Below are positions 38,592-44,765 of a DNA stretch of 44,765 nt, in pieces. This DNA is from Cytophagaceae bacterium. Its GTDB lineage: Bacteria > Bacteroidota > Bacteroidia > Cytophagales > Cytophagaceae. Where the stretch lies: assembly GCA_025454925.1 (NCBI GenBank), contig JALONM010000028.1, positions 1 through 44,765 on the forward strand, in the 5' to 3' direction. Position 1 is the first letter of the stretch. The number at the start of each line of letters is the position of its first letter. The notes beneath the pieces were generated by a model that searched no databases, was not told where the DNA came from, and saw only the letters and a list, made by a program, of their open reading frames with translations. The position numbers were made by a program, and so were the translations under genes.

Positions 38592-40571
38592 ATGCGTATA
38601 CCATTTTTAGAAGTTCGTTCATTAAGCGCTAAAACCCGGGTTGGGTTTGTTTTGATGCCCGTTTTGCTGGCTTTAATCTTGATCCTGTTTTCTGTATTTC
38701 AGCTGATTTCGTACCAAAATCATACGCTGGAAGGAATCGCGCAGAATACAGCGTATAGTTATTCTGACAAAGTAGATCGAAACTTTTACGAACGCTTTGG
38801 AGACGTGCAAGCATTCTCCAACAATAGTCTGGTGCAGGAAGCCATTGTAAATGCTTCCAAGCTGAAAGGGTTGGAAGATTATATGAACGGTTTAATGCGT
38901 TCGTATGTGATGTACGACCTGATGATTGTATGTGATTCGGCAGGACGTGTGGTGACCGCCAGCAGGGCCGACAAAGGCGGGGTGGCGATGCAAACGGGCC
39001 ACATTCGAAAAGGAAATTATGCTTCGGCCCGTTGGTTTCGGAGAGCCATAGAATCAATGGGGCCAAGCTACTTGGATTTTTCTATTGAAGAAGATATTAT
39101 CAAAATTGATCCTTCTAAATACGATGGCCATTCCATGGCTTTTTCTTGTCCGATCGTAGATTCTACAGGCAGGTTATTGGGTGTTTGGGTGAATTTTGCC
39201 AATTGGAAATTGGTGACATCCAAAATTCGCATGGAATTGGAAGACGATTTGGTGATTCAACATCCGAATTCTTTTTTAATCATGACGGATACGCTGGGAA
39301 GGATTATTGATGCCGGGGATCAGCGCTTGATAGAAAAGCAGGACTCTTTGTTTGCATCGCATTTAAGCGGTGAGACGCGATTGACATTTAAAAAGGCCGA
39401 AACGGATTTGTCGGACTTCGTGCAAGGCAAAGCCACCGGTAAAGGTGCATACACGTACGAAGGCAGACATTGGAACGCATATTCCTTTATTCCCAAGAAA
39501 AGATTCTCTTTCGGAGTATTATTCAGCAAAGATTTAACCGGATTGTATATATCCATATTCGTTTTAATTGTGTTTGTGTCCTGGTTGGCCAATAAATTTA
39601 CAATTTCCATCGCCCGGCGTTTGCAATATATCAAAGATGGAATCGTGAAATTATCCAATGGTGAAATTGTGACCCTCAAGGAAAATGGAAACGATGAACT
39701 GACCGAGATGTCTAAATTGATCAATACCTTATCTTCTCATCTCAAACAAAAAGTGGTTTTTTCCGAAGAGATTGGTCAGGGGAAATTAGAAACCGAATTC
39801 GAATTGCATAATGAAAACGACGAGTTAGGGAAATCCTTGATCACCATGCGCGATAGCTTGTTGTCGTTTAACAGATTGGAGGAAAAGCGCAAATGGGTAA
39901 CAGAGGGGATGGCTCAGTTTGGAGAAATTTTGCGTCAGAATGATTCATTTGAAAAACTTTGCGATAATATTCTTAGTCGTTTGGTAAAGTATGTGAATGC
40001 TAATCAGGCGGGGATATTCGTGGTTCGTCCTAGCGAAGAACAACCGAAGTTATTGGATCTTATTTCATGCTATGCTTACAACCGTAAGAAGTACCTCGAA
40101 CGCACCATTAAAGAGGGGCAAGGCTTGGTTGGGCAATGCTATATAGAGAAAAATTATATTTACCTGGATGATATTCCACAGGATTATTTAGTCATTACCT
40201 CGGGATTGGGTGAGGCCACACCGAATATTTTATTGTTGATGCCCCTGGCCATAAATGGCGAAGTACATGGGGTACTGGAAATAGCTTCCTTTAATCCGAT
40301 TGAGGATTACCAGTTAGATTTTTTACAGAAGTTATCTGAAAGTATTGCCTCTTCCATCAATTTAGCACGATCGAATGAAACCACACGGAGGTTGTATGAA
40401 GAAAGTAAGATGATGACCGAAGAATTGCGTGCCCAGGAGGAGGAAATGCGCCAGAACATGGAAGAATTGATGGCCACGCAAGAAGAGATAGAACGCAAGG
40501 AGCAAGAGTATCTGCAACGTATCGAAGAGCTGGAAAAGGCGCTCTACGAGCGGGATGAGAATAAGAATTAA
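38592..40571 (+). CDS. Cache-HAMP-GAF membrane sensor with coiled-coil end, no output domain
   Basis: 659-residue membrane sensor. One membrane helix (about 18-38), a large extracytoplasmic dCache-like domain (about 40-310, with YDLMIVCDSAGRVVTAS and DYxxRxWF-like SARWFRRAIESMGPSYLDFS), a second helix (GLYISIFVLIVFVSWLA), one or two HAMP-like segments (FTISIARRLQYIKDGIVKLSNG), a GAF domain (about 440-585, GQGLVGQCYIEKNYIYLDD) and a C-terminal coiled coil (EELRAQEEEMRQNMEELMA, to the end). There is no kinase, cyclase or methyl-accepting domain. It must signal through a partner bound to the coiled coil. A strong terminator follows. Confidence 0.85.
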   Translation: MRIPFLEVRSLSAKTRVGFVLMPVLLALILILFSVFQLISYQNHTLEGIAQNTAYSYSDKVDRNFYERFGDVQAFSNNSLVQEAIVNASKLKGLEDYMNGLMRSYVMYDLMIVCDSAGRVVTASRADKGGVAMQTGHIRKGNYASARWFRRAIESMGPSYLDFSIEEDIIKIDPSKYDGHSMAFSCPIVDSTGRLLGVWVNFANWKLVTSKIRMELEDDLVIQHPNSFLIMTDTLGRIIDAGDQRLIEKQDSLFASHLSGETRLTFKKAETDLSDFVQGKATGKGAYTYEGRHWNAYSFIPKKRFSFGVLFSKDLTGLYISIFVLIVFVSWLANKFTISIARRLQYIKDGIVKLSNGEIVTLKENGNDELTEMSKLINTLSSHLKQKVVFSEEIGQGKLETEFELHNENDELGKSLITMRDSLLSFNRLEEKRKWVTEGMAQFGEILRQNDSFEKLCDNILSRLVKYVNANQAGIFVVRPSEEQPKLLDLISCYAYNRKKYLERTIKEGQGLVGQCYIEKNYIYLDDIPQDYLVITSGLGEATPNILLLMPLAINGEVHGVLEIASFNPIEDYQLDFLQKLSESIASSINLARSNETTRRLYEESKMMTEELRAQEEEMRQNMEELMATQEEIERKEQEYLQRIEELEKALYERDENKN

Positions 40572-40841: not shown

Positions 40842-41726
40842 TTAATTAAACTCCCAGATTAAGTTTATTTCGGCCTGATTCAACTGGATCAGGTTTTTTA
40901 ATCCTAAAGGAACCGAATAGCTTCCCATGATTTTGAAACGGTTGCTTCCCCGTTCTTTGGTGGTAATGCCGAGCTGGTATTGAATTTCGGGTAAATTGGT
41001 TCGAAGGGCGATACCCGTGATCAGTACCTGATTCCAGTGAAAAGAAGTACCCGTATACGCATACGAGTAATCGTAACCACGCCAGCAGTACCAAGCGCTG
41101 ATTTCCTGACTGATCCAGGGAGTCCAGGGGATGCGTTGTATAAAGATGGCATTGAATAGCCGACTAAGTCTGGCGTTTGCAAAATCTGAAACGCTAGAGT
41201 TGAAAACGTGATTGGAGGATAAGGAAACACGGGTTAAGGGTGACCAGAGGCTTACACCAGCCGATCCATCGGCGGCAAAGGCAGATTTGCTTCCCGTGGA
41301 AGGAGTAGAGGCTACGTAGTAATTAAAGAATCCCATGGACATGCCCAAGGCGAGCTTCCATTGAGAGGAAAGGGGCAAACCCAAGGAGTAATTGCCATAC
41401 ATGCGTGTGCGGCCGAGGTATTTCCCTTCCTGCTCGCTGTGTACTAGCAGACCTGCCTGATGCCTGTAGAACGAATATTGCGTGTCTTTTTTTATTCCTA
41501 TGATTGCTTGCGCGTAATAATTGGCCAGGTTGGCGCCATTGCTGGCATTGGTGATTTGGCTGTGATTTCCGACTTTCATCTGATAACGGTGTTGATGATG
41601 GCCGGCGGGGTTAAGGAACGATTCCAAGGTGGTGTATTGATCAATTTCAGGAAAATAAAAGCGCTGCGCCGATTGAGCGAAAACACCAATTCCTGTCATT
41701 AAACAAATTAATTTATACCACATCAT
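40842..41726 (-). CDS. PorP/SprF-like outer-membrane beta-barrel protein
   Basis: 294 residues with a signal peptide (MMWYKLICLMTGIGVFAQSA). The following sequence alternates hydrophobic and polar residues as in beta strands (RMYGNYSLGLPLSSQWKLAL, GSMGFF-like turns, ending with aromatic-terminated strand INLIWEFN). The N-terminal FLNPAG and the general layout resemble the PorP/SprF family of T9SS-associated outer-membrane proteins, though the match is by eye. It is divergent from an ECF sigma/anti-sigma pair whose anti-sigma protein carries a surface-adhesin-like domain, the kind of partner PorP-like proteins usually have. Role: probably outer-membrane anchoring of a T9SS substrate. Confidence 0.55.
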   Translation of the reverse strand: MMWYKLICLMTGIGVFAQSAQRFYFPEIDQYTTLESFLNPAGHHQHRYQMKVGNHSQITNASNGANLANYYAQAIIGIKKDTQYSFYRHQAGLLVHSEQEGKYLGRTRMYGNYSLGLPLSSQWKLALGMSMGFFNYYVASTPSTGSKSAFAADGSAGVSLWSPLTRVSLSSNHVFNSSVSDFANARLSRLFNAIFIQRIPWTPWISQEISAWYCWRGYDYSYAYTGTSFHWNQVLITGIALRTNLPEIQYQLGITTKERGSNRFKIMGSYSVPLGLKNLIQLNQAEINLIWEFN

Positions 41727-41809
41727 GAACCTCCAAGATTCAAATAAAAAAAGTCATCCGTTTATAATCAAATTAGTTGTTACTTTTTTTATTTTCACTG
41801 GTCATATTA

Positions 41810-42385
41810 TTGAATTTGAATACTACAGGGAAACAAATACAAGACTTAATCTTGGCCGGAAAAGATGATGAGGTTCTTAAACGGCTGTATAGTAGTATTT
41901 TCCCCAAAACTAAATCGTACATCCTCAAACACGGCGGATCCCGGGAAGAAGCGGAAGACTTATTCCAGGATTGTGTGCTGATGGTATATACGAAATGTAA
42001 GTCTGGACAACTATCCCTGGTGGACAATATTGGTGGTTTTATGATGCAGATTGTAAAAAACCGCTGGATTAACCGGACGAAGCAGTTGCACCGGCAGCAG
42101 TCCATGCCAGATCTGCCGGAGATGCCGGAAGAATATGGCATTATTGAATGGATGCAGGATGCAGAAAAAGCCTCCACCTTGCAATGGATGATGGACCAGA
42201 TCGGCGAAAAATGCCGGGAGTTGTTGTGGCTTTCCGTCTTTCAGAAATTATCGATGGAAGAAATTGCCCAGAAATTGGGATTTACCAATGCCAATGCAGC
42301 CAAAACGAATAATTATCGCTGCAAGGAGAAATTGATACAATTACTGGATAAAAAACCTGGATTGAGAAGTATATTAAAAAGTTAG
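41810..42385 (+). CDS. ECF-type RNA polymerase sigma factor
   Basis: About 191 residues. Region 2 shows the core-binding and -10 recognition pattern (LKRLYSSIFPKTKSYILKHG, then EEAEDLFQDCVLMVYTKCKSG), and region 4 the helix-turn-helix LSMEEIAQKLGFTNANAAKTNNYRCKEKL. No ATG exists in frame before the conserved core. TTG codons occur at 41777, 41810 and 41816; 41810 gives a normal-length N-terminus. It should direct RNA polymerase to a small envelope-related regulon and be held by the membrane protein encoded next. The gap to that gene is 3 bases. Confidence 0.8.
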   Translation: MNLNTTGKQIQDLILAGKDDEVLKRLYSSIFPKTKSYILKHGGSREEAEDLFQDCVLMVYTKCKSGQLSLVDNIGGFMMQIVKNRWINRTKQLHRQQSMPDLPEMPEEYGIIEWMQDAEKASTLQWMMDQIGEKCRELLWLSVFQKLSMEEIAQKLGFTNANAAKTNNYRCKEKLIQLLDKKPGLRSILKS

Positions 42386-42388
42386 TGC

Positions 42389-43477
42389 TTGGAAGATACA
42401 TTCAAACGATATGAACAAATAGACGCTTACCTCGAAGGGTCTCTTTCCGAGCAGGAGCGGCGCGCATTCGAGCAAACGATGGCTACGGATGATTCGCTGA
42501 GAGCCTTGGTTGACAAACAGCGGGAAGCTCACGAATGGCTGTTTGCCATGAAACTGAGTGCTGTAAAATCTAAAATGAAGGAAGATTTTCAGCAGGGAGT
42601 TCCTGATCGCGTGGCGCGTTGGCAACAAGTTAAAAAACTGGGCATGCTCACGCTGGCCTTGCTCGTGCTGTCGGGAACGGTGTATTACTTCTTTCCTAAG
42701 AAAAACAAAACGGTTTCCATTTCATCTTCTGAAATAAGCACTCAGGTATCTTCGCCTGCACCTGTTTCGGAGGGAGAAGAATCGCCTTTACCAGATCAAC
42801 ACAAACGAAGTGTAGTTAAGAGTTCTGCGATGCCTTTGGCCTCGGAGCTTAATACCGCAACCACGGAGAAGGATTCTGGTAATTCTGCTACGACCATCAC
42901 ACGTCCGCCGGATTCTGCCGCAAAAACGGATGTAGCTAATGAGTCTCCTGATTCCGATAAGCTTCCAGTAACACCAGCATGTTTACGCAAAAATATTTTG
43001 CAACAGGTAGATGTATTTCAGGGATGTGCGGGCAAAACGGAAAGTTATATTCGTTTGTCGGAAGCCTGGGAACCTACTTCAGAGTTTCGTCTGAACCAAG
43101 GCAGGTATACTGCCCAGCGTTCATTCTATCGGGTGCCTGAAGGTCAGCATATCCTTGTAGTGCGCGATAGCAAAGGATGCCTTGATTCGGCAACGGTTTG
43201 GGTGCGTGAGAAAAAATGTGAAGCTCCTGTTCAGACGTATGCATTCCGACCTGCAACAGAAATGCTGGAACTGCCTATTCAAGACGGACAACACTACAGG
43301 GTACTCACCAAGAATGGAAAGGAAGTCGCTAAGGGAACGTTGATACAAGGTCAACTGCAATGGAATGGACAAGATTTCTCCGGGCAAATACTGGAAGCAG
43401 GCTTATACATCGTTCAGGTATTTGGTGAAAATTCCAACCAAGTAATTTCGACCTATCACGTTACCATAGTACCTTAA
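42389..43477 (+). CDS. Membrane anti-sigma-like protein with SprB-type and CHU_C-like external domain
   Basis: 362 residues from a TTG start 3 bases after the sigma-factor stop. Residues 1-75 are cytoplasmic and resemble an anti-sigma domain (IDAYLEGSLSEQERRAFEQ). One membrane helix (LGMLTLALLVLSGTVYYFF, about 87-105) leads to a Ser/Thr/Pro-rich linker (~110-200) and then two small beta domains: one with a SprB-repeat-like ending (VPEGQHILVVRDSKGCLDS) and a last one with LQWNGQDFSGQILEAGLYIV, like the gliding-motility CHU_C domain. It should sense an external or periplasmic signal and release the sigma factor. The beta domains suggest a link to T9SS or adhesion, matching the PorP/SprF-like neighbour. 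Confidence 0.7.
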   Translation: MEDTFKRYEQIDAYLEGSLSEQERRAFEQTMATDDSLRALVDKQREAHEWLFAMKLSAVKSKMKEDFQQGVPDRVARWQQVKKLGMLTLALLVLSGTVYYFFPKKNKTVSISSSEISTQVSSPAPVSEGEESPLPDQHKRSVVKSSAMPLASELNTATTEKDSGNSATTITRPPDSAAKTDVANESPDSDKLPVTPACLRKNILQQVDVFQGCAGKTESYIRLSEAWEPTSEFRLNQGRYTAQRSFYRVPEGQHILVVRDSKGCLDSATVWVREKKCEAPVQTYAFRPATEMLELPIQDGQHYRVLTKNGKEVAKGTLIQGQLQWNGQDFSGQILEAGLYIVQVFGENSNQVISTYHVTIVP

Positions 43478-43967
43478 GATTGTACATATCATACGGAAGA
43501 TTTCATTACTCTATTCCCTTGGTGCATTTACATGGCTTGGGCTGATTGAATCGAGTTTCTTCGAAAAGCAAGGTGTCAGGACTTTTAAATGGATCAATAC
43601 TTCCAGGATGTATTTGTGCAGAAGTTGGGAGTGGGGTAAGGATGGAAGATTGCTTTAGAATGCGTATGAAGCACAAAGAATTTAAGCTCGCTGAGCGTTT
43701 GCAGACAAAAGATCAAACTCCCTCAGAGGAGCGATTAACAGCCATTTCCATTCATGCTTCGGTTCCTGCCAAATCTTTTGAAAGGGATCGGCTAAAAGAG
43801 CGGAATTTTATAACAATTCCATCGGTCAGTTGGTGGCTCGTACAAGTTTTCGTGGTTTTTCAAGTACTGGAAAGTTTTCGATTGTACGGGGTTTAAGTGT
43901 AAAAGAAGTACAAGTGTTAAATAGTCCAACATATTCTCCCTATTTATTATCTTTGAGAAGGTGAAGT
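43478..43967. other. Intergenic stretch, no supported gene
   Basis: An open frame at 43546-43896 exists but its residues look random (mixed Cys, Met and basic residues, no hydrophobic pattern of a domain). The only feature I support is TATCTTTG at 43948-43955, an exact -7 element 12 bases before the next ATG; no TTTG is seen at -33. Confidence 0.5.
43948..43955 (+). promoter_or_regulatory. Bacteroidota -7 element of the LRR gene
   Basis: TATCTTTG matches TAnnTTTG, 12 bases upstream of ATG 43968. The -33 half is not convincing. Confidence 0.45.
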
Positions 43968-44765
43968 ATGTATAAACGAATACCCATATTGTTTTTGTGG
44001 TTGCTGATGAATCACTTATCGGCATGGACCCAGTCTGTGGTAATTCCTGATCCTAATTTCAGGGCGTACCTGGTCAGCACCCATCCAACCTTGATGAATG
44101 GTTCGCAGCAATTAATTTTGAGTGCCGCCAATGCGTTTACTGGCACCGTCAATTGTTCCAACCGTTCGATTTCCAACCTGAGTGGCATCGAACATTTTCA
44201 CAGCATGCTTACGTTGGATTGCAGCAATAATCAGATCAGCGCATTTCCAAGTCTTGCTTCGTTGAGTGCTTTGCAAACGCTTACCTGCAATAATAATCAG
44301 CTCAGCACCATCAATGGTTTGGGATCGCTCACTGCCTTGCGGTTTTTAACTTGCAGTCACAATCAAATAACCAGTTTGCCTGGGCTTGGAAACTTAACTC
44401 AATTGGAAATTTTGAATTTGCCCGGCACCACAACTCCTGGGCGTCCGCGCACTTCAACGGTCAATGGCTTGCCCAAGAGCGCTATCAACATCACGATTGA
44501 TGGCATCAATGCGCAAGACAACTTACTGAAATCAACCGACGGCTTTTTTACTTACGTTCGTCCGCGTACTGACGCGATTGAAGAAGTAACGCTTTCCACT
44601 GCCAATCCGGGCGCTGAAAGCTCCGCCGAAGGTGCCGTGCAAATCAAATTTGTGACGCGTGGCGGCACCAACGAATACCACGGCGGCCTTTATGAATATC
44701 ACCGCAATCCTTCGTTACAAGCCAATTACTGGTTTAACAACCGCGACTTGCGTGCTCCGGCAGGA
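43968..44765 (+). CDS. Partial: secreted LRR protein joined in frame to a TonB-receptor plug (probable chimera)
   Basis: Open from ATG 43968 to the window end (266 codons, no stop). Residues 1-22 are a signal peptide (MYKRIPILFLWLLMNHLSAW). Residues ~25-145 are a Bacteroidota leucine-rich-repeat protein (VIPDPNFRAYL, then repeats such as LQTLTCNNNQLSTINGLGSL and LRFLTCSHNQITSLPGLGNL). From about residue 150 the sequence is of another kind: TSTVNGLPKSAINITIDGIN, then DAIEEVTLSTANPGAES, GAVQIKFVTRGGTNEYHGG and ANYWFNNRDLRAP, the plug domain of Oar/CarboxypepD_reg TonB-dependent receptors typical of Acidobacteriota. GC content rises at the same point. The receptor lacks its own signal and N-terminal regulatory domain. 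Most likely two genomes joined during assembly near 44400-44430; a true fusion is less likely. Confidence 0.7.
   Translation, partial: MYKRIPILFLWLLMNHLSAWTQSVVIPDPNFRAYLVSTHPTLMNGSQQLILSAANAFTGTVNCSNRSISNLSGIEHFHSMLTLDCSNNQISAFPSLASLSALQTLTCNNNQLSTINGLGSLTALRFLTCSHNQITSLPGLGNLTQLEILNLPGTTTPGRPRTSTVNGLPKSAINITIDGINAQDNLLKSTDGFFTYVRPRTDAIEEVTLSTANPGAESSAEGAVQIKFVTRGGTNEYHGGLYEYHRNPSLQANYWFNNRDLRAPAG

Follow-up and report, generated by a model that had tools for sequence, protein, structure and literature searches.

Chimeric contigs are a counted assembler error, with benchmark figures per genome of 22.15 (megahit) and 2.63 (SPAdes) on Illumina paired-end data (PMC11261854), and the graph causes reviewed for them include links created by sequencing errors (PMC7299287). 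The contig analysed here, C112, forms our window in its entirety (44,765 bases), and its right end is almost certainly an interspecies chimera, in which a host gene for a leucine-rich repeat (LRR) protein is broken off and a fragment of a TonB-receptor gene from Acidobacteriota is falsely attached. As in other interspecies chimeric contigs of metagenome assembly, sequences of two taxa are separated by an abrupt switch close to the contig end, and both genes are incomplete. The join in C112, which lies in what is presumably a metagenome bin, would differ from these in no notable way, except that its two sources share less sequence than the usual k-mer.

Oar-like TonB receptors of Acidobacteriota are built from a CarboxypepD_reg domain, a plug and an OMP_b-brl_4 barrel. 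Positions 44418-44765 of the window share 81-85% protein identity with three of them, but comprise only the plug region and 32 of the 838 positions of the barrel model, without a start or the N-terminal domain. LRR proteins follow the repeat pattern L..L.L..N, with a conserved asparagine, and those closest to the protein of C112 are encoded in a gene cassette of the host family. The C112 copy resembles them in its N-terminal region, its repeats and its gene order, but ends at about residue 151 and is preceded by a gap of 490 bases.

Both pieces are read in a single open frame on the forward strand (43968-44765), which is free of stops up to the contig end; the sequence stops at 44765, with nothing to its right. 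The genome assembly that contains C112 comprises 4,523,365 bases in 135 contigs, with a completeness of 99.84 and a contamination of 0.22. The first part of the frame (43968-44417, forward strand) comes from the 5′ end of a host LRR gene, of which it retains about 150 codons before breaking off in mid-repeat. The Pfam model LRR_4 matches it with 60.4 bits (cut-off 27, E 1.6e-16); repeats are recognizable up to about residue 151, and weaker LRR models extend to residue 156. Relatives of this part occur in at least 17 of the 18 same-family genomes, and 15 more matches are spread over nine other contigs of the same genome. A C-terminal sorting domain (CHU_C or like) is absent from the window ORF in Pfam scans. 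All 14 same-family LRR loci read stay in the LRR frame up to a C-terminus unlike the plug. Since these loci continue, and since another contig of the assembly, C36, begins within an LRR gene, the host LRR gene of C112 is cut short as well.

The remainder of the frame (44418-44765, forward strand) is a foreign tail: it covers the plug region of an Oar-like receptor from Acidobacteriota, enters the start of its barrel and is then cut by the end of the contig. Its likeness to the receptor begins at Leu151 (44418). In Pfam, Plug covers ORF residues 151-219 with 16.7 to 17.1 bits, under its cut-off of 23.9, and the barrel model matches residues 229-260 with 34.7 bits (cut-off 30), an incomplete match that breaks off after the first model positions because the contig ends. 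Further, CarboxypepD_reg has no match in the window ORF, whereas it is found within residues 30-116 in all four long Acidobacteriota homologues scanned; in these, the barrel match starts at residues 239-244 and extends to residue 1313-1345. Each of 13 Acidobacteriota loci has 164-234 open codons upstream of the plug, counted from the upstream stop; in each, what comes before the plug is the N-terminal part of the receptor itself, and the stretch read contains no LRR. This count of 13 leaves out L046-L048, which repeat L036, L035 and L037, as well as the partial 47% match L039.

Close relatives of the tail across 84,980 species genomes amounted to five loci, all labelled as Acidobacteriota or as one of its classes or families; their protein identities in the best segment are 85, 82, 81, 65 and 47%. 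DNA matches were found in 35 of 119 genomes of the Acidobacteriota order and in 59 of the 162 class genomes. Neither set yielded a donor species; the best DNA identity over more than 300 bases was 77%, seen in one of the order genomes and three of the class genomes, the latter set apparently including the former genome. Within the assembly itself there is no second copy of the tail (next match at E 0.94), nor did we find a continuation of the receptor over the cut-off: the sole other match to the barrel model, on C65, covers positions 349-393 with 24.9 bits, under the cut-off of 30.

The two sources meet in a junction zone at 44409-44426 (forward strand), marked by the residues before the plug, by a switch in composition at 44419 and by the failure of the LRR pattern at residue 154. 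All 13 Acidobacteriota loci have L-D-L six to four residues ahead of the plug's L/M-P-G (positions -6 to -4), whereas the window has Q-L-E, so the likeness to the donor starts at most three codons before 44418. On the host side, the LRR pattern holds to Leu151 and breaks at residue 154, where a threonine stands in place of the conserved asparagine after L-E-I-L-N-L; likeness to the host is therefore over by about 44426. Of the ten best DNA alignments of the tail, nine start within 44418-44421, and no listed alignment starts before 44412, with a query that began at 44410, so that the alignments could hardly show earlier starts. By fourth-order Markov likelihood, the best single switch from host to Acidobacteriota in the ORF falls at 44419, compared to 44418 for homology; the log-likelihood is -26.7 on the left side of this switch and +18.5 on the right. 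The original prediction had described a change within a few codons, at 44400-44430, from an LRR protein ending in mid-repeat to the plug of an Oar-like, Acidobacteriota-like receptor devoid of its own start and N-terminal domain, with a rise in GC content at the switch; our results agree with it on all of these points. Compared separately, the LRR part of the ORF leads to the host family and the plug part to Acidobacteriota.

The GC content of 44418-44765 is 0.532, a value reached by none of the 4407 overlapping 348-nt windows in positions 1-44417 (mean 0.408, sd 0.042, maximum 0.511). Within the host part of the contig, GC is 0.382 in positions 1-22000 and 0.432 in 22001-43967. For comparison with other contig ends, we sampled 67 of the 270 ends, in a non-random manner (five were chosen for their LRR genes), and dropped four masked ones, leaving 63. 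Among these, the last 340 bases of C112 obtained the highest Markov score (16.7), followed by 9.7, 5.0, 4.0, 3.4 and 0.9, so five further ends score above zero, some of which are repeat-rich host ORFs. The 174 interior control windows had a mean score of -25.2 (sd 11.5, maximum 9.5), with four above zero, and the 35 held-out Acidobacteriota windows a mean of 20.6 (sd 23.9, minimum -53.1). Due to the wide scatter of the latter, composition by itself is no proof of origin. Nor is plain GC distinctive, as the C112 end ranks only about eighth of the 63 in the difference between the last 300 bases and the next kilobase. In nine of the 63 ends, terminal GC exceeds that of interior windows by more than about three standard deviations; those inspected include a likely group II intron as well as repeat-rich host ORFs, and the sample does not establish a general tendency of contigs in this assembly to end in foreign sequence.

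The right end of C112 thus has two sources that change at one point, the contig ends 348 bases further on, and the assembly holds no receptor continuation over the threshold. Because these observations come together with a lack of fused homologues among the sequences searched, we infer that the cell's DNA does not contain this join, and the fused LRR-plug protein of ORF 43968-44765 is most likely an artefact of assembly with no biological significance. In the origin we propose, the host assembly would have broken off among the repeats of the LRR gene, and 348 bases of a TonB-receptor gene from a co-sampled member of the Acidobacteriota would have been added to the free end, either via a chimeric read or fragment or via a false overlap that was very short. 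The open frame across the join would be due to chance, which gives this outcome in about a third of cases. As far as the sequence allows its limits to be drawn, the stretch common to both sources at the join would measure about 3-18 bases, and with so short a zone, a misjoin through k-mer overlap is no more likely than a chimeric read or fragment. Of the short-overlap misjoin originally suggested, the chimeric contig end is therefore retained, while the overlap loses any precedence as its cause.

Two other readings of the ORF have to be weighed against a chimera. In one, a recent and true transfer would have placed the Acidobacteriota receptor piece within the chromosomal LRR gene of this strain, resulting in a hybrid frame or a pseudogene. 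This would account for the open frame across the join and for the GC content of the tail, which lies slightly under that of most Acidobacteriota loci (12 of 13 are higher; range 0.503-0.632), but it would require the strain to have received a receptor piece without start and N-terminal part, in such a way that composition shifts at essentially the same base as homology and that the join comes to lie 348 bases from a contig end, even though just 2.1% of the assembly is as close to an end as this. An LRR-plug fusion was also sought in other genomes, and none was found among the Acidobacteriota loci read, the host relatives and the LRR matches listed. We therefore regard such a transfer as very unlikely, and a genuine strain-specific capture of the receptor fragment by a Bacteroidota LRR gene, forming an LRR-plug hybrid, as extremely unlikely.

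In the other reading, the LRR-plug protein would be native to the host family, which we regard as still less likely. A search of 59 genomes, including the host's own and thus 58 relatives (18 of the same family and 40 others of the same order), did yield plug homologues of the tail in 14 of the 40 same-order genomes outside the family; these, however, are only 25-35% identical and belong to ORFs of 961-1204 codons, and none of the 18 same-family genomes has a match. The LRR loci read from the family, as noted above, continue in their own frame to a different C-terminus in 14 of 14 cases. A chimeric contig end remains the reading we prefer.

The cassette to which the host LRR gene belongs is present in four copies in the genome (on C112, C105, C25 and C72; the window copy at 40842-44417) and consists of a PorP/SprF-like, an ECF sigma, an anti-sigma-like and an LRR gene. 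The observation is based on loci L043, L044 and L045 as well as L007, L008, L010-L012, L016-L022, L024 and L025. In the window, a gene of the PorP/SprF family (40842-41726, reverse strand; PorP_SprF 44.6 bits, cut-off 22.3) is divergent from the ECF sigma factor gene (41777-42385, forward strand; Sigma70_r2 26.6 bits, cut-off 24; TIGR02937 54.6 bits, cut-off 42.9). The following gene (42389-43477, forward strand) is called anti-sigma-like due to its position after the sigma gene and to weak matches (NCBIfam antisigma 22.5 bits, cut-off 100; zf-HC2 14.1 bits, cut-off 22.2), and the anti-sigma-like protein of the cassette ends in a secretion-signal-like stretch. The one anti-sigma-like protein scanned from a relative had no match to anti-sigma families. 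Domain scans covered genes of the cassettes on C112, C105 and C25, and PorP_SprF was under its cut-off on C25. On C105, C25 and C72, the LRR gene comes immediately after the sigma and anti-sigma-like genes; the 490 bases that separate the last two genes in C112 (43478-43967), where other cassettes have almost none, found no match in the examined stretches of the same genome.

From the relatives of the host, 19 loci were fetched and five from other families excluded. In all of the remaining 14, an anti-sigma-type ORF lies directly upstream of the LRR ORF (348-580 codons), both assigned by eye; in L017 the upstream ORF is divided between two frames. Scans of five further LRR proteins gave CHU_C over the cut-off in those of C36 and L012 and below it in those of L007 and L020, whereas it is absent from that of C105. 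With two of five passing, the C-terminus common to the LRR proteins can be graded as secretion-signal-like only, and is not proven to be such in each. The families PorP_SprF and CHU_C belong to type IX secretion, a system not known outside Bacteroidota, and on this basis the host is judged to be a member of that group. The copies of the cassette resemble a set of related LRR proteins at the cell surface, with a separate regulator for each; in a literature search judged by title, we did not find the cassette described.

The true 3′ part of the C112 LRR gene may be held by C36 (27,239 bases). After about 340 bases, this contig enters LRR repeats that lack their own start and are followed by a C-terminal CHU_C domain (33.8 bits, cut-off 27). 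In comparisons with four longer relatives, the best alignment of the 151 residues of C112 runs from residue 6-45 to 147-169, and that of the 381 residues of C36 from residue 82-169 onward, reaching the C-terminal end in all but one of them. In three of these four references the ranges of the two pieces overlap, which repeats permit. Together the pieces would amount to about 530 residues, compared to 535-571 in the four relatives (for three of which the length is that between stops), a sum that fits one LRR gene split over the ends of C112 and C36 but is not proof of it.

C36 and C112 have no shared overlap or synteny. A search for synteny through nuoN, the neighbouring gene on C36, found it in 14 of 15 same-family genomes, with none of the LRR matches listed beside it. 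The sensor gene of the window (38592-40571) has matches in 7 of 15 same-family genomes, and in four genomes of one genus partial matches to it lie about 27-32 kb from a listed LRR gene, not adjacent to it. At the start of C36 (L040, 1-340), the first 180 bases have a GC content of 0.55-0.63 and LRR likeness appears only from near base 340. These first 340 or so bases have no Pfam or NCBIfam match and no convincing match in Acidobacteriota (4 of 119 genomes, best E 0.003), and their Markov composition score, at +0.9, favours neither side; perhaps they are a second foreign contig tail. Near-identical LRR-containing ORFs are also found at the right end of C47 (L032) and the left end of C94 (L041); they may be paralogues, or variants between strains, at which the assembly came apart.

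For the annotation of this genome, we suggest that C112 be trimmed from about 44409 and that 43968-44408 be annotated as a 3′-truncated LRR gene, the remainder of which should be sought in C36. Taken at face value, the ORF would enter annotation as a cross-phylum fusion or gene transfer, which its recognition as a probable chimera prevents.
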